Virus record (IMG/VR): IMGVR_UViG_3300045135_000898
Span: 1 to 64,000 of that record
Length of the DNA: 64,000 nucleotides
Direction: 5' to 3' (one strand)
Origin: a virus
The position numbers were made by a program, and so were the translations under genes. This document shows, one piece after another, positions 4,254 to 44,259 of the stretch; within the stretch, counting starts at the first letter, position 1, and every line of letters starts with the position of its first letter. The notes under the pieces were generated by a model, which worked only from the letters and a program-made list of their open reading frames with translations, did not search any database and was not told the origin of the DNA.

Positions 4254-4685
4254 CTAAACGAACCACTTAGGATCGGTCGCGGTAAGCTTGACGATTTGAT
4301 TCCATAATGAAGTATCTTTAAACTCTTCAACCAACGTCATCTTGTTAATGTCAAAGCAGTACGATTCCTTTCCTGGGCGAATGTTTCTTACCGTGTAGTT
4401 TCGGTCAGTACACTCAAAGATACGGATCTTCTGTCCTTTCCCAGGTTCAATAAAGATAAGACGATCAACCGATACACATTTGCGAATCTGATTGTTTGTC
4501 GGAGTTTGATCAACGACGAAACAGTTCGCTTTATTGTATCGGCCCTGGGTCTTCACTTCAACCTTAGTACCGTCTGGCATAGTAAGATCCTTTTCACGAT
4601 CATACTTATCTTCGGAAAGTATAGCGCCGAATCGTTCAGCGATGATATCCTCTCCAAGTTTGCCTAGCTTTTCTATCCTAGTCAT
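4254..4685 (-). CDS. Putative PD-(D/E)XK nuclease-like protein
   Basis: The 143-residue protein begins with a helix containing Glu12 and then carries an Asp-rich strand followed by KVEVKTQGRY, in the layout E...D...ExK of the restriction-endonuclease-like fold. Such small proteins may act as endonucleases or DNA repair and processing factors in phages. The assignment rests on this one motif. It overlaps the start of no upstream gene but follows the epimerase directly (stop and start share a base), so both are probably co-transcribed. Confidence 0.5.
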   Translation of the reverse strand: MTRIEKLGKLGEDIIAERFGAILSEDKYDREKDLTMPDGTKVEVKTQGRYNKANCFVVDQTPTNNQIRKCVSVDRLIFIEPGKGQKIRIFECTDRNYTVRNIRPGKESYCFDINKMTLVEEFKDTSLWNQIVKLTATDPKWFV

Positions 4686-5656
4686 TACATCTTACCTTTA
4701 TAATATGGCGAGTTTGACATCCATTCATAGTAACGTTCAAACCCTTCTTCAACATCAACCTTAGGATCAAACCCAAAGTCACGACGAGCAGCATCGATAT
4801 TCAATGAACCACGACTTGGAAAGTCAGGATCACGTTCGCCACAATCAATTGAACCATTGCCTGCAATCTTAACTGCTAACTTAGCCGCATCAAGTAAAGT
4901 ATGACCGTGGCTCTTAGTAATGTTATACGTCTTATTGTCTGTATTAGGACTAAGAGCTGCTGCAACAATTCCTTCGGCTGCATCGTCAACATACGTAAAG
5001 TCAAGCGTTTCATCAGCGCCGTTCACTTTAAGTGTTTCGCCGCGCATTGCTTTTGAAAGGAACTTGGAGATTACGCGATCCTCGACATCAAGTGGGCCAT
5101 ACACCGCTGACGGGCGAAGTATGACATGCTTTAATCCTTCGTATTTTCGGCTGTAGTCTCGTACAAGCCATTCTCCTGCCAATTTCATAATTCCGTACTG
5201 TCCTTCTGGACGCATCTCAGAAGCTTCTATCGTGTCGTTTTTGAAGGGTCCATAAGACATCGAAGATGACATATAAAGGAACTTTTTAACCCCGTACTCA
5301 GCCGACAGTTCTAAAAGATGGAGAAGACCTTCGCTCATTACACGAGACCCTGCGCATGGATCAGCATTAACAACCTTTTGGCGAGGAAATGACGCAAGGT
5401 GCAATACAACATCAAAATTATCGTGCGTATGAAAAATGTAACGCATACTCGATTTATCACAAATGTCGAACGGGTAAATTCGAGAATGTTCGATCTTCTT
5501 AAGGCGTTCTGACATCAAATATTCAATTTCGTCACGAGGAATAATCGTGTAGTCAGTTTGGTTATCAACAACCACAACTTGATGTCCAAGATGTTCTAGT
5601 CGCTGAACAACGTTATGACCAATTAAACCTAGGCCGCCAGTGATAAGGAATTTCAT
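4685..5656 (-). CDS. NAD-dependent epimerase/dehydratase (extended SDR)
   Basis: This 323-residue protein is an extended short-chain dehydrogenase of the UDP-sugar epimerase/dehydratase type. The NAD-binding GGLGLIGH is at residues 7-14, a Ser-rich strand SSSMSYGP precedes the catalytic YGIMK (Tyr-x-x-x-Lys), and the length fits the family. It should interconvert or dehydrate a nucleotide sugar. No lipopolysaccharide genes accompany it, so a plausible use is supplying the sugar donor for the glycosyltransferase at 37196-38440; that link is inference. GGAGATATT precedes the ATG. Confidence 0.85.
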   Translation of the reverse strand: MKFLITGGLGLIGHNVVQRLEHLGHQVVVVDNQTDYTIIPRDEIEYLMSERLKKIEHSRIYPFDICDKSSMRYIFHTHDNFDVVLHLASFPRQKVVNADPCAGSRVMSEGLLHLLELSAEYGVKKFLYMSSSMSYGPFKNDTIEASEMRPEGQYGIMKLAGEWLVRDYSRKYEGLKHVILRPSAVYGPLDVEDRVISKFLSKAMRGETLKVNGADETLDFTYVDDAAEGIVAAALSPNTDNKTYNITKSHGHTLLDAAKLAVKIAGNGSIDCGERDPDFPSRGSLNIDAARRDFGFDPKVDVEEGFERYYEWMSNSPYYKGKM

Positions 5657-31658: not shown

Positions 31659-32336
31659 TTATTTATCAGATACTACCTGACTGGCATATGGGAAAATAGC
31701 CAAAATAGCCTCCGCTACAGCCTTAGCGACCTCGCGATGCTCCTTTTGAGTCTCTGGACCAGTTCGAAGCTCGATAAAGTGAATCCAGCTGCGTATAGAG
31801 CCTTGCATGTACATTCGCGATGGTGTTAGACCTTCGGGTAGCAGAGCTCGACGCTGTTCCTTGGCGATACCAAGATTTGCCGCATTTGTGTATTCCTTTT
31901 TAACGAAACCAGCAACTCGCTGTTGGATTCTAAACCATTCTTCGTTAATTTTTTCGTCTTCTGTTGCATTTGAATTTTGACGGTTTTTATCGTCTTGAAG
32001 TCGAGCTTCACGGAACTCAAATTCAAATCCATCTTCCAATGGATCAGCATAACGCTGACTATATTCTTGGAAAGCAAACGATCGATGTCGAAGGATCTGA
32101 CGAGCAATATCACGCGTCGTTTCAATCTCAATCGTAGCAGTAGCCATTTCAAATGGTGACCAATGCTTATGTTTAATCAAGTAATTAAGAAGACGTTCTG
32201 TCGTCTCCATATTCATTTGGTTAGAAGGATTTGAAACACGGGCACAGTACGAAATAAGGTCTTGTACGTTCTCCATGTTCAGTTCTTCTTTAGCGCCTTC
32301 AGCGGGCTGAGTGTAACCAATTAGTCGTGCTTTCAT
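31659..32336 (-). CDS. thyX: Flavin-dependent thymidylate synthase, ThyX
   Basis: 225 residues with the ThyX signature RHRX7S (Arg83-His84-Arg85, Ser93) and the RALLPEGLTPSRMY segment. It methylates dUMP to dTMP using FAD and methylene-tetrahydrofolate. T4 instead has a ThyA-type synthase (td). It follows the gp41 helicase gene by six bases and is likely co-transcribed with the recombination genes. Confidence 0.95.
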   Translation of the reverse strand: MKARLIGYTQPAEGAKEELNMENVQDLISYCARVSNPSNQMNMETTERLLNYLIKHKHWSPFEMATATIEIETTRDIARQILRHRSFAFQEYSQRYADPLEDGFEFEFREARLQDDKNRQNSNATEDEKINEEWFRIQQRVAGFVKKEYTNAANLGIAKEQRRALLPEGLTPSRMYMQGSIRSWIHFIELRTGPETQKEHREVAKAVAEAILAIFPYASQVVSDK

Positions 32337-35850: not shown

Positions 35851-35879
35851 ATTATATCAAAGATAATGACCGATGTAAA
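35851..35879 (-). promoter_or_regulatory. Early promoter with -35 inside a hairpin
   Basis: TTTACA-17-TATAAT on the minus strand. GACCGATG and CATCGGTC flank the -35 region and form an 8-bp hairpin, so the promoter is in a stem-loop cassette. Confidence 0.82.
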
Positions 35880-35918
35880 CAACTTTTTTCACATCGGTCA
35901 TAATGTTTCTTATTGTGT

Positions 35919-35984
35919 ATAATGTATACTATACTGAACATTATTACATATTTTCGTCATAATGTTCACTATTCTTAACATTAT
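35919..35984. repeat. Two operator-like inverted repeats
   Basis: ATAATGT (35919-35925) and ACATTAT (35938-35944), then ATAATGTT (35959-35966) and AACATTAT (35977-35984), two spaced dyads of the same sequence between the methyltransferase end and the promoter at 35851. They could bind a dimeric regulator; none is identified. Confidence 0.5.
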
Positions 35985-37189
35985 AAGAAGGCTTCGAGAG
36001 TATTCGTAGCAAGATTGCCAACATCAATCGATTGGCGGTGATTGTTCTGTTTAACGAAGTCAGTTTCAGTCATTGGTAGTTCACCGCGGACAAACTTAAT
36101 TGCTTCTTCAACCATAGATGCAGCAGTGCATACAGGAACGTTCTGAGCAATCATATTCATTTTAGCCAAACCCCCTTGAAGCTCAAAATCATGCGGGAAT
36201 GCCATCATATGTAATGCTTCACGGATATTCAAAGAACGATCTTCTTCAGGGTGTACTGTGTCAGCGAGGTTACGACCAATAACAGCATTCATAGCATCGT
36301 CAAAAATATGCGTTGAGCTATCCCAAATTCCCATACCTTTACTGAACTTCATAATAGCATGGTCAGCAAGCTGTACACCTTTCGTATCACCGGTTTCAGC
36401 AAACCAATCTCGAGCTTCATTAAGCAAACCGGCGCGCTGAATAAACGAAAATGCAGTATTACGACCTGCACCAATTACAACTTCACGAGCATCTTTACCA
36501 AACTTGTGTTCAATAAACTTGAAGTATGATTCACGAGTACCTACACGATCGTTGATAACAAGGTCTTGTTGAATTGCATTTTTAGGAATTTCACGAAGGT
36601 ATTCTTTAAAGTTTTTGCGAGGTTCTTTATACCAATGCATAATTGGTGCTTTGCCGCCTTTCCAAAAAATATAGAAAGTACGATCACGATTTTGAGGTAC
36701 ACCATGAAGAGAAGTAGTTGTCTTGTACAGTGTCATGGCATAGCCGTTTTCACGAGCAATTTCAAGAAGCTTATCAGCAACAGGTTTACCTTTGTTCGTA
36801 TAAAGCGCAGGGGCATTCTCTCCAATGATTACGTCAGCTTTAAACTTTTGCATACCATCGGTAGCCGATTGATACATCCATTTGTTTACTTCGGCATCAG
36901 CGCCTTTTGCTTCTTTACTCTTACCAGTATTAAGCTGAGATAGGCCTGCACAAGGCGGGGTTGCAACGAGAATGTTAACCTTTGGTAGACTTGGAGTTTC
37001 ATCTATAGTAACATACTGTAGACCACTTCGTCCAAGGGTTTCCTTTTGATAGTTAACGTATTGCCCATCGTTTCCGGCAAAACCGTCGTAAGAATAAATG
37101 TTAGTAGGTGGTACGCCTGTGGCCTTTTCAGCGCCTAGAGGTAAACCGCCAATAAGTGGAATTAGCGGTGCCCATGTAATATCGTTCAT
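35981..37189 (-). CDS. C5-cytosine methyltransferase family protein
   Basis: 402 residues. Motif IV PPCAGLSQ with Cys80, ENAPALY (ENV box), GVPQNRDRTFYI (motif VIII) and the terminal QNVPVCTA (motif X) are present. Motif I reads LIPLIGGLPLG, with Phe and Gly of FxGxGG replaced. It may methylate cytosine or, since the phage makes hydroxymethyl-dCMP, act on modified bases or non-catalytically; both are inference. It is followed by a glycosyltransferase gene, seven bases upstream in transcription. Confidence 0.75.
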   Translation of the reverse strand: MNDITWAPLIPLIGGLPLGAEKATGVPPTNIYSYDGFAGNDGQYVNYQKETLGRSGLQYVTIDETPSLPKVNILVATPPCAGLSQLNTGKSKEAKGADAEVNKWMYQSATDGMQKFKADVIIGENAPALYTNKGKPVADKLLEIARENGYAMTLYKTTTSLHGVPQNRDRTFYIFWKGGKAPIMHWYKEPRKNFKEYLREIPKNAIQQDLVINDRVGTRESYFKFIEHKFGKDAREVVIGAGRNTAFSFIQRAGLLNEARDWFAETGDTKGVQLADHAIMKFSKGMGIWDSSTHIFDDAMNAVIGRNLADTVHPEEDRSLNIREALHMMAFPHDFELQGGLAKMNMIAQNVPVCTAASMVEEAIKFVRGELPMTETDFVKQNNHRQSIDVGNLATNTLEAFL

Positions 37190-37195
37190 AATTAA

Positions 37196-38440
37196 TTATC
37201 CAAAAAAGTCAGTCAAGTCAAAAGTTTCAATTACTTTCTTTTCAAAGTTAGCAAGGACAGGTGGTTCATAACCTTCAATCAATTCCTGCATAACGACTTG
37301 GTTAAGTTGAGTTCCATCGTAGTATTCTGGCTTGCAGAACATATCCTGTAATTCCTGAATAGCTGAATTATATATCTTATCATCTGACAGTGCAGCTACT
37401 GCTTTAGCAAGATCAGCTGGAGTTTCAGGTCGTAACCATTTAGGTACTTTTAGATTATCCTGCTCATCATATGTCGGATGGAAGAAAGGAATAACTCCAG
37501 CATGGATCATTTCCACGTATTTTGAAGTAGTCCAGCCTTTAGCAATTGGGATGATAAATGTTGCCCTAACCGACTTAAGCTTTTCTTGCAAATCTTCAAG
37601 GGCCATAGAACCTTTAAAGCGATCATCTTCCAACGTGGCTTCGTGATCCCATTTTCCGTAGATTTCGACGTCGTCGTTTCCATCAAGTACCCACTCCTTT
37701 AGCATTTTGTATCGTGACGGTGTACCTTCATTTAACACAACCATAAAGTCGGTTAAACGAGTAAAAGCCGGACCTGGGTAAGGAGCTTCAGGTTTACCTC
37801 GACCGTACAAAAAGATTTTTTCCATTTCAGCATACTTCGCAGGCACTTCAGTTTCAACACGAGTTTGATCTGCATAGCTACGAGATGCCGTACGTTTGTA
37901 GTTATATGTATATTGCGAAAGGCTAATCTTAGGATCAACAAAACAGTCTTTGCTTTGCGCAAGAGTGTAGCGTGGATCATTGCAGATTTCAATGACATTC
38001 ATTTCTGGATTTTCATTTAGCCATTTCGTAATAGGCGTAGTGTAGTTACGAGTCATGTCAATAATCGCAACAGTCTTACTAGGATCTCGTTGACCCCAAA
38101 TGCGATCAGGTATTGATACATTACCAACCTGACCCATCATCATAATAAAGTGGTCAGGCTGAAATCCAAGATCATCAAAGTACTTAATTACTCGGTCTTG
38201 GTCAGCTGGACCTTTATGTCCTTCAAATGCATCTTTTACATTATCGTAAGGAAACAGATCAATTCGCTGTTCTTCGGTAAGACGGTTGAAGTCAGATCTA
38301 CCAATGATATGAAAAGTAATATCTGGATTATTATTGGCAAGAATTCGTAACATCGAAGGTGCTTCATTGTCCCCTCCGACTGGACTAAACGCTGTTACGA
38401 ATTTAATTGACTTGCCAAGTTTTGCAAATGCTATATTCAT
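37196..38440 (-). CDS. GT-B type glycosyltransferase, putative DNA sugar transferase
   Basis: 414 residues. The C-terminal half carries a nucleotide-sugar-binding stretch KGWTTSKYVEMIHAGVIPF and FHPTYDEQDN, like GT-B glycosyltransferases. The final residues TFDLTDFFG match the C-terminal clamp-binding-like tail of the polymerase; T4 alpha-glucosyltransferase is known to interact with the clamp gp45. Its neighbours (methyltransferase homologue, gp42, sugar nucleotidyltransferase) support a role in glycosylating hydroxymethylcytosine in DNA. The sugar is unknown. Confidence 0.7.
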   Translation of the reverse strand: MNIAFAKLGKSIKFVTAFSPVGGDNEAPSMLRILANNNPDITFHIIGRSDFNRLTEEQRIDLFPYDNVKDAFEGHKGPADQDRVIKYFDDLGFQPDHFIMMMGQVGNVSIPDRIWGQRDPSKTVAIIDMTRNYTTPITKWLNENPEMNVIEICNDPRYTLAQSKDCFVDPKISLSQYTYNYKRTASRSYADQTRVETEVPAKYAEMEKIFLYGRGKPEAPYPGPAFTRLTDFMVVLNEGTPSRYKMLKEWVLDGNDDVEIYGKWDHEATLEDDRFKGSMALEDLQEKLKSVRATFIIPIAKGWTTSKYVEMIHAGVIPFFHPTYDEQDNLKVPKWLRPETPADLAKAVAALSDDKIYNSAIQELQDMFCKPEYYDGTQLNQVVMQELIEGYEPPVLANFEKKVIETFDLTDFFG

Positions 38441-38790
38441 TTATCTGCCCATTCTATAAATTGTGAAAGGTTCATCGCCTTATCGTCAACATAATAAGTA
38501 GATGAGTACGGTTTACCGAAGATAAGATTATCATACGGTACGTTGTAAGTATTTAGCCAGTCTTCTGTAACAACAAGTACGTCATCTAAGATTTTATTAA
38601 GGTCTCCATTATGAGTCAGCATACGACGAGCTGAACTGATCGTGATATGGAAACCTTCATTCTTAAGTTTATGCATTCTTTCAATAATTGCAGTATTAGG
38701 TCTTGCCAACCCATACTTACGATACGTGGATTTTTCAGAATGATTTGGAAAACAAATTGTATCGTCAAGATCAAACACTATACTCTTCAC
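38437..38790 (-). CDS. HAD-family phosphatase
   Basis: 117 residues starting at a GTG (GAGGAG upstream). FDLDDTICF is the DxDxT nucleophile motif, and YYVDDKAMN the distal acidic motif; the cap is minimal, as in sugar-phosphate or capsule-biosynthesis HADs. It overlaps the flanking genes by a few bases, so it likely works with them, for example dephosphorylating a sugar intermediate. Confidence 0.75.
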   Translation of the reverse strand: MKSIVFDLDDTICFPNHSEKSTYRKYGLARPNTAIIERMHKLKNEGFHITISSARRMLTHNGDLNKILDDVLVVTEDWLNTYNVPYDNLIFGKPYSSTYYVDDKAMNLSQFIEWADK

Positions 38791-40264
38791 TAAGGTACTC
38801 CTCTACATAATATTTAAAGCGTGACTGACGTTCAGGGTCGTCGTAATGAAGTGGTATGCAAGTAGCAATCAATAAACAACCTGCATCAATGATTTCTTTA
38901 ACTGGTAAGTTGTACTCTTTAAGCTTACGCACAAAGATGTCTTTAACATACTCGTTATGTTTAACGTTTGCAACCATTGCGCCGTAGCCATGATACAAGT
39001 CATGTGCTAGTTTTGCAAAATCATAAATATGATCGCCTTCAGTACCAACATATGATCCGTACGCTCCTCGTGGGTCAATCAGTTTAATTTGATTCGTTTG
39101 TTGGTTATAAAGAATGTTACCGAAATGAAGATCGCCGTGCATACCTGTAATAGGACGAGTAATGCGATAAGCTGCTTCACTAATTTTCAACAGCTTTTGG
39201 CGATCATTCTCAGTAAACTTAACGTTACGTAAACGCTTAGTCGTTTTCGTTACCCACATGTCTTCAGCTAATTGGTCAAACTCTCGGATGAATACTTCGT
39301 CATCACAAAGTTCATTGAAGTAATTGAGTTTGATTTTAAATACTTTATCTATGATGTATTCCCATGCCGACTCGCTAAGGTTTTCATATAACATTAAGTC
39401 AGAAAGAAGCGTACCACTCTCGTACGACATTACAAGATCATGTTTGGTTTCAAGTACGCGAGGAACGAACATTGATTGTTCAGGAGTAAGCATACGGTAC
39501 CACTTTTTCTCGGTACGAATAGTTTCAACTGAAGTGGCATTATGATAGTCAGGTGACTTACGAACAGTGCCAAGATCAGGATCATACATCATATCATTGA
39601 ACGCACGACTCTTCAAATTCAGTAATTTTGCGCATGTTTCATAATATGTAGGTAAATCGCCGATATCATACCACTTATTGGTCAGAACACGCTCGTATTT
39701 GCCGTAAACTTCAAGGGCATGTGAAATATCGTATTGTTCCACAGTATTAAAGGCGTTTTGGGCAGAAATCCCATTTTTAAATGAATATAGGCCGACTAAA
39801 GCAACCGCATCAGATATCTTATTGGTTGGCTTATTATAATACGCTTCGCCATCCCACATACACCAAGCTGATTGATTATCTACCTCTTTACATAAAAGGA
39901 AGTCAGAACCAAATGGCATATCTTCTTCAAGAATGATTGCGTCGCCTAACCAAACAACGACAGGTTTAGATGGATCCTCAAGAGCATTCATACCGCGAGC
40001 AATCGCATCGCGTGGGCCATCATAATTAGGTTGGTTCGCGAACTTGACATCAGGGTGACGTCTGCTGCAGTATTCACGGATATCGTTAAACTTACCATCA
40101 ACGATTACAATCTCGGCGATATCAGCAGTCTTACGAGCTTGTTCAATAATATAGTCAAGACACGGCTTACCGTTAACGCGAACCATAACTTTGGAAGTGT
40201 TACTAGAAAGCGGACGCAGCCTAGTGGCAGCACCCGCAGCTGGTATGATTAAATTTACAGACAT
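38771..40264 (-). CDS. Sugar-nucleotidyltransferase / kinase fusion
   Basis: 497 residues in two domains. The first 230 have the nucleotidyltransferase start IPAAGAATRLRPL at 7-19 and the Lys in SKVMVRVNGKP. The rest is an aminoglycoside-type kinase with HGDLH followed by GNILY and a DPRG metal motif near residues 375-395. The combination would phosphorylate a sugar and couple it to a nucleotide, supplying the donor for the adjacent glycosyltransferase. Substrate unknown. First gene after the promoter at 40291. Confidence 0.75.
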   Translation of the reverse strand: MSVNLIIPAAGAATRLRPLSSNTSKVMVRVNGKPCLDYIIEQARKTADIAEIVIVDGKFNDIREYCSRRHPDVKFANQPNYDGPRDAIARGMNALEDPSKPVVVWLGDAIILEEDMPFGSDFLLCKEVDNQSAWCMWDGEAYYNKPTNKISDAVALVGLYSFKNGISAQNAFNTVEQYDISHALEVYGKYERVLTNKWYDIGDLPTYYETCAKLLNLKSRAFNDMMYDPDLGTVRKSPDYHNATSVETIRTEKKWYRMLTPEQSMFVPRVLETKHDLVMSYESGTLLSDLMLYENLSESAWEYIIDKVFKIKLNYFNELCDDEVFIREFDQLAEDMWVTKTTKRLRNVKFTENDRQKLLKISEAAYRITRPITGMHGDLHFGNILYNQQTNQIKLIDPRGAYGSYVGTEGDHIYDFAKLAHDLYHGYGAMVANVKHNEYVKDIFVRKLKEYNLPVKEIIDAGCLLIATCIPLHYDDPERQSRFKYYVEEYLSEEYSV

Positions 40265-40290
40265 AAGGCATTACTCCAATTCATTTATCC

Positions 40291-40319
40291 ATTATACACT
40301 ATGTATGCCTAAATGTAAA
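40291..40319 (-). promoter_or_regulatory. Early promoter of the sugar-modification operon
   Basis: TTTACA-17-TATAAT on the minus strand, in front of the nucleotidyltransferase-kinase gene; the operon continues to about 35981. Confidence 0.82.
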
Positions 40320-40322
40320 TAG

Positions 40323-40784
40323 CTAAAAGTGATTTAATTCAACAACTTCAAAATCAATGCCAACTTCATTGAACATTGCTTTGGTATCCTCAAACGATAC
40401 TTTCCACTTAACTCCCATTTTATCAAACGATAAAGGAAGCCCAATTACAACTCGCTTAGTTCCTACTTGGATAAGTCCCTTTGCGCATTCAGAGCAAACA
40501 GGTAATCCATAAACGTAAACAGTCGAGCCGTCAAGACTTACGCCGTTATATGTAGCATTATAGATGACATTCTTTTCAGCGTGTACGACATATGTGTATT
40601 TCTCTTCACGATTATTTAGCCTTTCAGAAGAATCATCAATACCACGAGGAAATCCGTTATAGCCTTGCGAAAGAATTCGTTTATTATCGTCTACAGCAAT
40701 GGCGCCGATTTTAGCTGATGGGTCTTTTGACCACATCGCCACTTCTTTAGCCATTGCCATAAAGCGTTCATCCCATTTATTCAT
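40323..40784 (-). CDS. cd: dCMP deaminase
   Basis: 153 residues, starting at the ATG at 40784. Zinc site: His68 and Glu70 in HAE, Cys97 and Cys100 in PVCSEC. Converts dCMP to dUMP for thymidylate synthesis, here via ThyX. The stop-start overlap TAATG with the upstream gene shows coupling to the gene at 40784-41470. Confidence 0.93.
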   Translation of the reverse strand: MNKWDERFMAMAKEVAMWSKDPSAKIGAIAVDDNKRILSQGYNGFPRGIDDSSERLNNREEKYTYVVHAEKNVIYNATYNGVSLDGSTVYVYGLPVCSECAKGLIQVGTKRVVIGLPLSFDKMGVKWKVSFEDTKAMFNEVGIDFEVVELNHF

Positions 40785-41470
40785 TAGTCCCACAACGCCT
40801 CATAATATTTACCAAACAATCGGAAACCGTTACTGATGCGTTCTTGATATGCTTTACGACCTTCCATGTCAATTTCGAATGTATGGTTAGGTCCGTGTTT
40901 CATTTCAAAGTATTGAGCGTCTTCTTTAGCCACTTCATAACCGTCTTCATCGACAGGTGAAAAATAAACGTCATGTTCACCGCTACAGAATTGATCTTCC
41001 CAATCATCATTAAGTTTCGATTCAAAGGCAAAGATCATTTCGCCCATTACCCATTCCCAACGCTTAAAGAATTTGTCATCAGTGGTACCATCTTTCTGGT
41101 ATGCAGTCTCTTCAACCGATGTTGCCCATAGTTCTTCAGGCACATCTTCAGAGTCAACCTGTGGTGCTCCATGTTTAGTCTCTTTAAGTTGCTTCAACAT
41201 TGGCACCATAATATGTGCTAACGTATGGTCCATGCTCCAAGTATCCCACGGATCAAGTTTTACTTTAATCTTCTGCTCACGTTTATCCAAGAAGTAATTA
41301 ATTGGACTATAAAGATTTTGTAAGATATCATCAAACTTATCAAGGAAGCGTTCAAACTTCGTCTGCTTGCTTTCGCTAGGCCAATGACTAAAGCCATACT
41401 TCTTAGTCATATAGTCAGCGTATATTGTTGCTCGTAAACGACTTGGATATGGGCCAATACGTACTTTCAT
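40784..41470 (-). CDS. Conserved phage protein, 228 aa
   Basis: Opens MKVRIGPYPSRLRATIYADY and has HTLAHIMVPML and a Trp/Glu-rich mid domain. Homologues are frequent in large marine phages, always of unknown function. It sits between gp42 and dCMP deaminase in one transcript, so a role in nucleotide or DNA modification metabolism is possible but unsupported by motifs. Confidence 0.6.
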   Translation of the reverse strand: MKVRIGPYPSRLRATIYADYMTKKYGFSHWPSESKQTKFERFLDKFDDILQNLYSPINYFLDKREQKIKVKLDPWDTWSMDHTLAHIMVPMLKQLKETKHGAPQVDSEDVPEELWATSVEETAYQKDGTTDDKFFKRWEWVMGEMIFAFESKLNDDWEDQFCSGEHDVYFSPVDEDGYEVAKEDAQYFEMKHGPNHTFEIDMEGRKAYQERISNGFRLFGKYYEALWD

Positions 41471-41471
41471 A

Positions 41472-42161
41472 TTACTCTCCTAGAAGATGGAAGTGGCGAC
41501 TATACACATGTAAATTCTGAACTTGCCAATGGATATCACCTGATGATAACAAAGGACCAAAAGTATCTTCTGCAAAGCTAGCATTGTAATTACTCACCAT
41601 TAAGTCAAGTAAGTAGCGTTGCCAAGCGTAATCATTTTTGTAACCAAAGATTACATCGTTTGATCGCATCTGAACTACACAGTGCATTTTACCGTTGCGG
41701 ATGTAGTATGTAACAGAGTTAGTACAAATGAAGTCAGATTTACCGTTTTCATTATACTCAGTCCAAATTGATGGGCGAGTGTAAATCATCGAGGCGCGAC
41801 GAGAATCAGGATTATTGATTAACTCATACAATGCTTTTTCAAACTGATTAAAGTACTTATTTGAAAACACAAGAGTACCGTAGTTTGAATTAATGTTGCC
41901 ATGATGATCGCCTGTCATTTTCCATGCAGCAGGAGGTTCTTTTTGTCCATGATAAATGTCGTTGATGTTAGTCGACATTGAGAGATACCAATCAATTTCA
42001 GAAGCAACGTACTCTTCATTCACTGTACCAAAGATGGATGGTTCGTCAGCTAGGAAAGATGCACCAAGCATTTCGATAGTCTTACCACCGTTACGATCTT
42101 GTGTAAAACGCTCAGCCGCAAGTTCAGCTTTAAAATATTCGCGGATGTCTTGTACATTCAT
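41472..42161 (-). CDS. 42: dCMP hydroxymethylase (gp42)
   Basis: 229 residues from the ATG at 42161 (GAGGAA upstream). Close to T4 gp42 across its length, including GASFLADEPSIFG, SDFICTNSV (nucleophile Cys146) and KNDYAWQ (Asp177, the residue that distinguishes hydroxymethylation from methylation). It makes 5-hydroxymethyl-dCMP, so the genome likely contains hydroxymethylcytosine, which the clustered glycosyltransferase could modify. T4 gene 1 kinase is not in this window. Confidence 0.95.
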   Translation of the reverse strand: MNVQDIREYFKAELAAERFTQDRNGGKTIEMLGASFLADEPSIFGTVNEEYVASEIDWYLSMSTNINDIYHGQKEPPAAWKMTGDHHGNINSNYGTLVFSNKYFNQFEKALYELINNPDSRRASMIYTRPSIWTEYNENGKSDFICTNSVTYYIRNGKMHCVVQMRSNDVIFGYKNDYAWQRYLLDLMVSNYNASFAEDTFGPLLSSGDIHWQVQNLHVYSRHFHLLGE

Positions 42162-42165
42162 AATA

Positions 42166-42348
42166 TTACTCTTCCTCTTCAATTACAAGATTGCCTGGGA
42201 TATGATATCCGCATGCTCGTAAGAATTCAGCATATGCTTCTAACATATGATCAAGATTTGCTTCATCAGCCAATTCCATTTTTACAGAATTCACTGCAGT
42301 ATACGGAGAATGCATTTCTGGTCTTTTGTAAATTAGTTTAAATGGCAT
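42166..42348 (-). CDS. Hypothetical small protein, 60 aa
   Basis: Starts MPFKLIYKRPEMHSPYTAVN, ends in EEEE; a small mixed alpha/beta domain. Overlaps the upstream gene by one base and is followed by gp42 in the same transcript. No family recognised. Confidence 0.55.
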   Translation of the reverse strand: MPFKLIYKRPEMHSPYTAVNSVKMELADEANLDHMLEAYAEFLRACGYHIPGNLVIEEEE

Positions 42349-42659
42349 TACATATCTCCGTAAAAACGATCGTCTTGTTCAGGGCCTTCGAGAGTCTGGA
42401 TTTTAAGGATCATAAGCTGAGTGATGGCATGATCAAGATGAGGTAAGCCAGATTCTGGATCATTGTCTTCACCAGCCCAGAATGCATTAAGATGACGCTG
42501 TGCCGATGAGTAAGTACGGCCAAATGAAGTATTGCCAACATCGTGGCGCCAATTGTTTTCACCGTACTTTTCAGCGCCAAATCCTAGAACGCGGGCTACT
42601 GCCATGATACATTCTGCAGGGATTAGGTGAATAGGCGCTTTGCCGTTATCATATTTCAT
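42348..42659 (-). CDS. dATP/dGTP diphosphohydrolase N-terminal-like protein (DUF5664-like)
   Basis: 103 residues with KYDNGKAPIHLIPAE, FGAEKYGENNWRHD and the helical RTYSSAQRHLNAFWAGE, the pattern of the phage DUF5664 group, an all-helical relative of NTP pyrophosphatases. It may adjust purine or modified dNTP pools. The single-domain length suggests it acts with a partner. Confidence 0.65.
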   Translation of the reverse strand: MKYDNGKAPIHLIPAECIMAVARVLGFGAEKYGENNWRHDVGNTSFGRTYSSAQRHLNAFWAGEDNDPESGLPHLDHAITQLMILKIQTLEGPEQDDRFYGDM

Positions 42660-42931: not shown

Positions 42932-43858
42932 TTACTGATTTTTATATGCGTATTCTATCGCGCGGTCGGCTTCCAACTCAAGTGGTCGGTTTTCGTACCA
43001 ATTACCAGTTTCCATATCTATTTCACGGGCAAGTTGAGCGATTTCTCGAGATGTAATTGGATAACCTGCATCGATAGCTTTATAAGCAATTGATACCATC
43101 ATCTTGTACATTCCGTGATACCAACCAGTGTCAGTGATATTACGATATGAATCAACGGCTACCTTAGATACAAACGGGCAATCATGATATGACTTCCAAG
43201 AAAACTTTGTATTTTCCATTGAGTCTTTACGATGCTGCACAATCATTTGTTGCATAGAGTCAGGTAGTCGTTCAAAGAATGATTTGCCGCTTTTCTTTAT
43301 CTCTATCGGATGCTTAGCAATAAGAGCATCAGGGTCAATATAAGACCCAGAATTGACGAAGATAAAATTGTTAGCACCATCATAATTCGCAGGCGTGTAG
43401 TACATTCGGCTAAGGTCTTTAGTTTGTCGATCTCCAACTGAGTCAAGCTCAGTGTTGAGAGCGTACCAAAACTGTTTGATTCGATCCGCCTTAACAGCTC
43501 CTTTAAGTGGAAAGACGAGTCTAAACTTCGGATGATCGACAGTACTGCTAGCAGTGCTATAACAAACGTAATACCAATCACCATACCTAGTACGTAATTC
43601 ATTTTCTAGATCTCCTTCAAATACGTGTTCGTCTACGTCGACTGCAGCCCAACGACCCCACTCGGTAACATTTCTGTTAGCACGAGTGGTACCGTCTTCG
43701 TAAACTGCTGGAGAGATGAGTTCAGCATCTTTCTTGTCTTTAATATCACGCTTAGACAATTTGAACAACAAGGCTTCAAATTCTTCCCAAGATTGGAAGG
43801 ACATGTTCTTGTTAGTCTTGTTATCATAGATGCTTTTAAAGACAGTCAAAGAGTACAT
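42932..43858 (-). CDS. AEP-type primase-like protein
   Basis: 308 residues with archaeo-eukaryotic primase motifs: DxD in AAVDVDEH (Asp74, Asp76), a Ser-x-His-like segment STVDHPKFRLVF (Ser105, His109), and a third acidic region DLSRMYYT. T4 uses the unrelated DnaG-like gp61, which is not seen in this window, so this may be an additional or replacement primase or primase-polymerase. Activity is predicted only. It overlaps the MazG-like gene start by one base. Confidence 0.6.
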   Translation of the reverse strand: MYSLTVFKSIYDNKTNKNMSFQSWEEFEALLFKLSKRDIKDKKDAELISPAVYEDGTTRANRNVTEWGRWAAVDVDEHVFEGDLENELRTRYGDWYYVCYSTASSTVDHPKFRLVFPLKGAVKADRIKQFWYALNTELDSVGDRQTKDLSRMYYTPANYDGANNFIFVNSGSYIDPDALIAKHPIEIKKSGKSFFERLPDSMQQMIVQHRKDSMENTKFSWKSYHDCPFVSKVAVDSYRNITDTGWYHGMYKMMVSIAYKAIDAGYPITSREIAQLAREIDMETGNWYENRPLELEADRAIEYAYKNQ

Positions 43859-44259
43859 TACAGGTCTCCGTGATTTCCTTCATGCGATGGCGCCTGCCAT
43901 CCTTCAGGTTTAACAAGATCAGGCAGACCAAATGGATTTGGGCGACCTTCTTTAACACCAACGTTTTTAGATAGGTTAGCATGTAGGACTTCATCCCATG
44001 CTTGATTTGCATCAACGCCAAATACGTTGAGCGTGCCAATTGCAAATACGCAAAGGTCAATCAAACCATCAACGATTTCTTCAGGGTCTCCTGCGTCAAC
44101 CGCATCGTAAGTTTCGTATAGTTCTTCTTTACACATATCGATACGGAAACGAAGATACTTGGCCATCATTTCATGGTCATCTTTGTTTGCCTCAAACCAA
44201 TCATGTACGCCAAACTTGACGTGCATATTGTCGATATCTTTTACCCAGTTATTAGACAT
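43858..44259 (-). CDS. MazG-like NTP pyrophosphatase, putative dCTPase
   Basis: 133 residues, all helical, with the EE..E...D metal pattern (CKEELYETYDAVDAGDPEEI and DGLIDLCVF) of the MazG/HisE superfamily. T4 gp56, the dCTPase-dUTPase that excludes unmodified dCTP, belongs to this superfamily, so this is a candidate functional equivalent in a hydroxymethylcytosine phage. Substrate not shown by sequence. Confidence 0.7.
   Translation of the reverse strand: MSNNWVKDIDNMHVKFGVHDWFEANKDDHEMMAKYLRFRIDMCKEELYETYDAVDAGDPEEIVDGLIDLCVFAIGTLNVFGVDANQAWDEVLHANLSKNVGVKEGRPNPFGLPDLVKPEGWQAPSHEGNHGDL

Follow-up and report, generated by a model that had tools for sequence, protein, structure and literature searches.

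Analysis of a 64,000-nucleotide stretch of viral DNA (bases 1 to 64,000 of the incomplete, 82-kb virus record IMGVR_UViG_3300045135_000898; hereafter the window) revealed a minus-strand gene cluster around the dCMP hydroxymethylase gene, gp42, that very probably is, in its core, a cassette for glycosyl-5-hydroxymethylcytosine (glycosyl-hmC). The new element of this locus, and the part likely to surprise specialists, is a linked family of C5-methyltransferase homologues (C5MT) whose sequences apparently are rewired with respect to the cofactor. The source virus is, as judged from its sequence, a distant T4-like phage; gp43, uvsX, gp41, gp44, gp45, and NrdA-type genes were recognized from the translations of the open reading frames (ORFs) in the window, and a megablast search with 18 kb around the locus found no DNA-level match in the phage collection. 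An initial annotation had proposed that this phage attaches a self-made activated sugar to hmC, and had named gp42, a GT-B type glycosyltransferase, a HAD phosphatase, and a fused nucleotidyltransferase-kinase; all of these genes are present where it placed them or very near, on the minus strand. The C5MT gene at 35981-37189, fourth in the predicted operon, was overlooked even though the annotated interval starts there. The features of the locus are as follows.

41472..42161, minus strand: gp42, dCMP hydroxymethylase (PF00303, 4e-15; phmmer to T4 1b49, E 2e-68)
40784..41470, minus strand: phrog_11543 protein, function unassigned (phrog_11543, 5e-52)
40323..40793, minus strand: dCMP deaminase (PF00383, 5e-21; phrog_174, 8e-43)
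40291..40319, minus strand: phage promoter TTTACA-N17-TATAAT just 5′ of the fusion gene (motif counts, position)
38771..40264, minus strand: fused nucleotidyltransferase and APH-type kinase of the RB69 ORF53_52c family (PF00483, 5e-14; PF01636, 2e-6; phrog_4098, 3e-25)
38437..38790, minus strand: HAD phosphatase (TIGR01689, 7e-24; phrog_1238, 6e-22; blastp to RB69 p051, 2e-7)
37196..38440, minus strand: GT-B glycosyltransferase, predicted to be T4 beta-glucosyltransferase-like (AlphaFold2 model, match to 1j39)
35981..37189, minus strand: C5-methyltransferase homologue, C5MT (PF00145, 7e-19; AlphaFold2 model; motif tables)
35866..35901, minus strand: terminator-like hairpin 3′ of C5MT, 14 pairs (RNA fold −19.3 kcal/mol, z −5.8)

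The gp42 protein has 229 residues from its ATG, and the ORF caller also offered a TTG start at 42182. As annotated, Cys146 and Asp177 are conserved: they align with Cys148 (catalytic) and Asp179 (dCMP specifying) of T4 gp42, the latter position being Asn in canonical thymidylate synthase (TS).

The glycosyltransferase (GT) had no sequence match in Pfam, PHROG, NCBIfam, or PDB, direct phmmer to PDB included. Its AlphaFold2 model (43 sequences; pLDDT 91) has the GT-B fold that had been predicted, and the closest structure is T4 beta-glucosyltransferase (BGT; 1j39), with a Z score of 21.9 and a root mean square deviation of 3.8 Å over 313 residues; BshA, the best match among non-DNA glycosyltransferases, scored Z 18.7 and T4 AGT scored Z 16.6. 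In a weak hhalign profile alignment (8% probability), R243/K307/E310 of GT fall on the UDP-binding R195/R269/E272 of BGT, and by eye E26 and D155-x-R157 were paired with E22 and D100-x-R102, of which D100 is catalytic. On the strength of the model, GT is a BGT-like branch named by no library. It resembles BGT in predicted fold, tentatively in its aligned donor-binding residues, and in the position of its gene beside hmC genes, whereas the two proteins are 13% identical, share no sequence family, and probably differ in donor, that of GT being other than UDP-glucose.

In related loci (designated here by L numbers), T4 AGT homologues occupy the position of GT in the L018 type (1y6f, E 1e-17; PF11440 above cut-off), and TAGT occupies it in L091 (PF20691, 1e-19). 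That DNA glycosyltransferases replace one another in this slot of the cassette is the best reason to regard hmC in DNA as the acceptor. No member of the AGT family was seen in the record of the window itself, though the control was silent as well. A second GT-sized family, without a Pfam or NCBIfam match, lies between GT and C5MT in L010:9244-10377 and L003:4238-5344 and may add a second sugar.

For the linkage counts, identical sequences were entered a single time and loci with flanks too short were left out; loci retrieved via a gene did not count toward the evidence for that gene. GT was accompanied by gp42, HAD, and C5MT in all 14 GT-anchored loci. Around the fusion gene, HAD was found in 42 of 42 loci, C5MT in 37, and gp42 in 36, and 30 of the 35 C5MT-anchored loci contained gp42. 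As a baseline, any gp42 match at all occurred in 1176 of 50,697 phage records. Taken together, gp42, the BGT-like GT, the exchange of DNA glycosyltransferases among relatives, and the tight synteny support the proposal that a phage-made activated sugar is attached to hmC.

The donor half of the cassette is not new, since the fusion and HAD are homologous to the arabinosyl-hmC module of RB69 (ORF055c, ORF53_52c, p051, p048; PMC6024577). The fusion consists of a nucleotidyltransferase domain (Pfam NTP_transferase, residues 1 to ∼210) and an APH-type kinase domain (residues ∼240 to 497), and nearly its whole length is covered by phrog_4098, the PHROG that holds RB69 p052/p053 (ORF052c, ORF053c); hhalign of the fusion profile against RB69 p053/p052 gave 1e-9 and 6e-9. 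The NCBIfam match of HAD, TIGR01689 for the EcbF/BcbF capsule phosphatase, is under the curated cut-off, and phrog_1238, to which HAD belongs, is the family of RB69 p051. RB69 holds these homologues at the equivalent genome position, between gp43 (DNA polymerase) and uvsX, and likewise has an Asp-type TS-family enzyme. The window differs from RB69 in that no SIS isomerase was found, GT is a different enzyme, a C5MT homologue is added in the operon, and gp42 is of the T4 type rather than the divergent p048 type.

The combination of a kinase-transferase fusion with a phosphatase is, as annotated, absent from T4, but it was already known from RB69, where Thomas et al. proposed that ORF53_52c serves UDP-arabinose synthesis (PMC6024577), and by architecture from Shewanella phage Thanatos. 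The Thanatos locus (TH1_060, TH1_062, TH1_063), for which a cytosine-linked pentose has been reported, encodes, near the hydroxymethylase, a 561-residue protein with a glycosyltransferase/nucleotidyltransferase-type N terminus and a phosphotransferase C terminus (PMC12838424). Likened by description alone, TH1_060 and the fusion have the same two-domain architecture; Thanatos differs in having a separate UDP-xylose pyrophosphorylase, and a C5MT is not reported there (PMC12838424).

An arabinosyl-hmC of the RB69 type, with NDP-arabinose made from arabinose-5-phosphate, would be a special case of the glycosyl-hmC core. We consider it unlikely, despite the membership of the fusion and HAD in the RB69 ORF53_52c and p051 families and their equivalent genome position. 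The comparison with RB69 that the initial annotation called for bore out the homology of these two proteins. The SIS isomerase (the RB69 arabinose-5-phosphate isomerase) was not found in the incomplete record or in 13 relative contigs of 54 to 221 kb, and the genomes of Pseudoalteromonas phage XG4 and Enterococcus phage 9183, both complete, did not yield it either; RB69 ORF003c, the proposed arabinosyltransferase, showed no relation to GT (hhalign E 0.3). Given the missing isomerase, here and in XG4 and 9183, arabinose is not to be assumed. A further point against it is that Gram-positive hosts are not known to have the Kdo pathway as a source of arabinose-5-phosphate.

ADP-heptose synthesis employs a C1 kinase, a phosphatase, and a nucleotidyltransferase. 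The three activities predicted here match this logic, which suggests a sugar phosphate as the starting point, and the donor pathway looks ADP-heptose-like; the salvage-type pathway of the initial annotation finds no support, and the enzyme trio fits formation of a sugar-1-phosphate from an already phosphorylated sugar. Salvage like that by MurU/AmgK/MupP was rejected, as the nucleotidyltransferase matches MurU weakly (3e-5, far under the cut-off) and HAD is EcbF/BcbF-like. The epimerase at 4685-5656, which the initial annotation listed with the locus, is a real gene (PF01370, 4e-45), but nothing ties it to the cluster: it lies ∼30 kb away, is a generic short-chain dehydrogenase/reductase (SDR), and is 22 to 26% identical to SDRs near other C5MT loci. 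Judging from sequence matches, the three donor activities recur among relatives in other gene arrangements. L059 has a HAD-APH fusion (recognized from motifs and phrog_1238) together with a TagD-like cytidylyltransferase, and in Bacillus phage G the APH-like protein, HAD, and nucleotidyltransferase are encoded by separate genes along with AGT and C5MT.

A glycosyl-hmC cassette of this composition would operate as follows. gp42 would convert dCMP to hydroxymethyl-dCMP, which would then be incorporated into DNA. From their family membership, the kinase domain of the fusion would phosphorylate C1 of a sugar phosphate, HAD would strip the other phosphate, with the nucleotidyltransferase domain making the nucleoside diphosphate (NDP)-sugar. 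GT, as its fold, residues, and slot exchange suggest, would attach this sugar to DNA at the hydroxymethyl group of hmC. C5MT, predicted to be cotranscribed with the fusion, HAD, and GT, might act with Cys80 on C6 of hmC or glycosyl-hmC.

The promoter TTTACA-N17-TATAAT (40319-40291) ends 26 nt 5′ of the fusion start, and the intergenic gaps from the fusion to C5MT are −20, −4, and +6 nt, HAD overlapping the fusion by 20 nt and GT by 4 nt. With at most one mismatch, the promoter motif occurs 24 times in the window compared to 1.0 expected in shuffles, and the 82-kb record has 25 exact TTTACA/TATAAT copies (spacer 16 to 18). Because the promoter and the terminator-like hairpin frame fusion-HAD-GT-C5MT, these genes read as a predicted transcription unit of their own. 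The promoter family is very uniform (e.g., 40319-40291 and 35879-35851), and for many of its members an AG follows and the downstream context is similar.

The AlphaFold2 model of C5MT (65 sequences; pLDDT 93.7) matched DNMT1, M.HaeIII, and M.HhaI with Z scores of ∼25, while the single sequence had no match in PDB by direct phmmer. Catalytic motifs IV (PC), VI (EN), and VIII (QxRxR) are kept, with Cys80, Glu124-Asn125, Gln166, Arg168, and Arg170 present in 65 of 65 aligned sequences. In the same 65, motif I for S-adenosylmethionine (AdoMet), FxGxG, is replaced by [IV]PL[IVA]GG (PLIGG in the window copy). PL[IVA]GG was found in 133 of 136 C5MT locus sequences, the exceptions being one truncated sequence, that of phage G with another variant, and one apparently different, canonical enzyme. 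Leu12 stands at the position of M.HhaI Gly20, and at those of Phe18/Glu40/Trp41 the family has Ile/Val10, a variable residue 35, and mostly Gly/Ala/Asp at 36; the M.HhaI sequence used as reference agrees in its motifs with five phage enzymes. That the motif I replacement is invariant points to a new function or ligand, and not to decay.

Ordinary C5-methyltransferases in vitro and without AdoMet add formaldehyde to cytosine and thiols to hmC (PMC7176277), and they form adducts with hmC (PMC11347137), so that AdoMet-free chemistry on hmC is possible. In these atypical reactions (M.HhaI with formaldehyde, M.SssI with thiols; PMC7176277, PMC11347137), the active site adds or derivatizes a 5-hydroxymethyl group; they are side reactions of ordinary enzymes, whereas C5MT would be a dedicated one. 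The best PDB profile match of the family is CmoX, a DNA cytosine C5-carboxymethyltransferase (8YF3; PMC12783734), in which a phage has likewise turned the C5-methyltransferase fold to a new use within a hypermodification locus. CmoX, however, keeps the cofactor contacts Phe25/Glu47/Phe48/Asp69, which are mostly gone in C5MT, and has Arg350. Carboxymethylation of the CmoX type was rejected, as the CmoX Arg (M.HhaI Asn304 position) is absent and C5MT has Asn350 in 65 of 65 sequences. A TET/JBP-dependent route was also set aside; PF12851 was not seen in the incomplete record, where the control was silent as well.

We think it a serious possibility, if somewhat short of probable, that C5MT attacks C6 of hmC or glycosyl-hmC via Cys80 without canonical use of AdoMet. 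Slightly more tentative is the wider proposal that this widespread family left AdoMet chemistry and is now a dedicated hmC-DNA enzyme, in which attack of the Cys on C6 allows the C5 substituent to be exchanged, taken off, or put on, a step common to otherwise different cytosine hypermodification pathways of marine and freshwater phages. It appears doubtful that C5MT instead protects residual cytosines as an ordinary methyltransferase that depends on AdoMet. The fold and catalytic motifs IV, VI, VIII, and X are intact, as this explanation would have it, and Asp63 of motif III is mostly kept (48 of 65), but the first Gly of FxGxG is an invariant Leu, M.HhaI Phe18/Trp41, which stack on adenosine, and Glu40, which binds ribose, are not conserved, and C5 would already be substituted if hmC replaces cytosine.

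Several observations count against a glycosyl-hmC cassette. No gp42 was visible within 9 kb in L014, L098, L102, L104, L106, L107, and phage G; phage G has an Asp-type TS-family gene nearby, and the contigs of relatives are fragments, in which absences are weak evidence. GT is linked to BGT by its modeled fold, of the common GT-B type, and by a profile alignment that is weak. Finally, a dNMP kinase was not found in the incomplete 82-kb record with a homologue from L006 as the query, a negative of little weight given the partial record. Glucosylation as in T4, drawing on the UDP-glucose of the host, with the fusion and HAD serving another purpose, would suit a BGT-like GT and hosts in which UDP-glucose is available. 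We regard it as improbable, since no GT-anchored locus with sufficient flank lacks HAD and the donor genes are swapped for analogous sets, not lost. Modification of host surface glycans (superinfection exclusion), a role proposed for pelagimyophage glycosyltransferases (PMC7029224) and in keeping with the capsule-biosynthesis type of HAD and the nucleotidyltransferase, is very improbable for a cassette that lies within the replication module beside gp42, exchanges its GT for the DNA glycosyltransferases AGT and TAGT, and holds a DNA-C5MT fold in the same predicted operon.

Three further genes were assigned as follows.

43858..44259, minus strand: MazG/PRA-PH type nucleotide pyrophosphohydrolase (PF01503, 2e-10; phrog_671, 6e-25)
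42348..42659, minus strand: dATP/dGTP diphosphohydrolase N-terminal-type protein, a neighbor (PF18909, 1e-29)
31659..32336, minus strand: ThyX (PF02511, 2.5e-41)

The minus-strand order is MazG-type pyrophosphohydrolase, primase, dATP/dGTP diphosphohydrolase, gp42, phrog_11543 protein, and dCMP deaminase, followed by the nucleotidyltransferase-APH fusion, HAD, GT, C5MT, two small genes, uvsX, gp41, and ThyX. ThyX supplies dTMP, which leaves the TS-family gene free to act as a hydroxymethylase, and the MazG-type protein is a candidate for the dCTP-removing enzyme. The phrog_11543 gene overlaps that of dCMP deaminase and is kept beside gp42 in L018, L026, and L089. Directly 3′ of gp42 in L010:4842-5393 is a peroxiredoxin gene, and at L022:5630-6868 a FabF-like ketoacyl synthase lies within the hmC cassette, with gp42 and dCMP deaminase on either side. 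Between gp42-deaminase and C5MT, L238:1593-5361 and L232:3643-7995 contain an inositol-1-phosphate synthase homologue, a protein with a 5-hmdU DNA kinase helical domain, a protein that looks pyridoxal phosphate type, and a protein common to both loci (phrog_13881 in L238); these are possibly other, perhaps non-sugar, cytosine hypermodifications with the same C5MT.

Cultured carriers are Pseudoalteromonas phage XG4, S-TIM5, and phage G, and, for the sugar cassette, Enterococcus phage 9183. Homologues of gp42, the fusion, HAD, GT, and C5MT are all present in XG4; in 9183 no C5MT was found. All three C5MT lineages examined in the phage collection (XG4, the S-TIM group, and phage G) encode a TS-family enzyme whose dCMP position is Asp. 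In cyanophage S-TIM61 (L004:8715-9551) the annotated ThyA has this Asp, and the sequences suggest that S-TIM5-like cyanophages make hmC. Phage 9183 (L002:10776-15209) carries an annotated thymidylate synthase with the dCMP-specific Asp and a dUTPase gene, then HAD, fusion, and GT; hmC glycosylation is predicted for this Enterococcus siphophage. Bacillus phage G (L261, record 210459-230140 and 233481-234188) encodes the C5MT homologue gp301, AGT (gp306/gp313), nucleotidyltransferase gp309, HAD gp310, and APH-like kinase gp311, and the Asp-type gene is a second one of the TS family; this is apparently an unrecognized glycosyl-hmC set in a jumbo Gram-positive phage. In the papers examined on pelagimyophages and Enterococcus phage 9183, this modification was not reported.

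These data expose a large, apparently cofactor-rewired C5-methyltransferase family that accompanies hmC synthesis. If C5MT does act on hmC without AdoMet, DNA bases would be written or edited by an enzymatic principle that is new, and the enzyme might serve as a tool for labeling hmC; the cultured carriers make the glycosyl-hmC and C5MT predictions testable. An entire class of uncultured phages from aquatic habitats, together with the Gram-positive phages 9183 and G, is now tied to the RB69-type donor genes. Since the "thymidylate synthase" of 9183 and G carries the dCMP-specific Asp, it is probably a hydroxymethylase, and with sugar donor genes and Asp-type enzymes occurring together in these phages, glycosylated hmC is likely to be far more widespread than the T-even phages.

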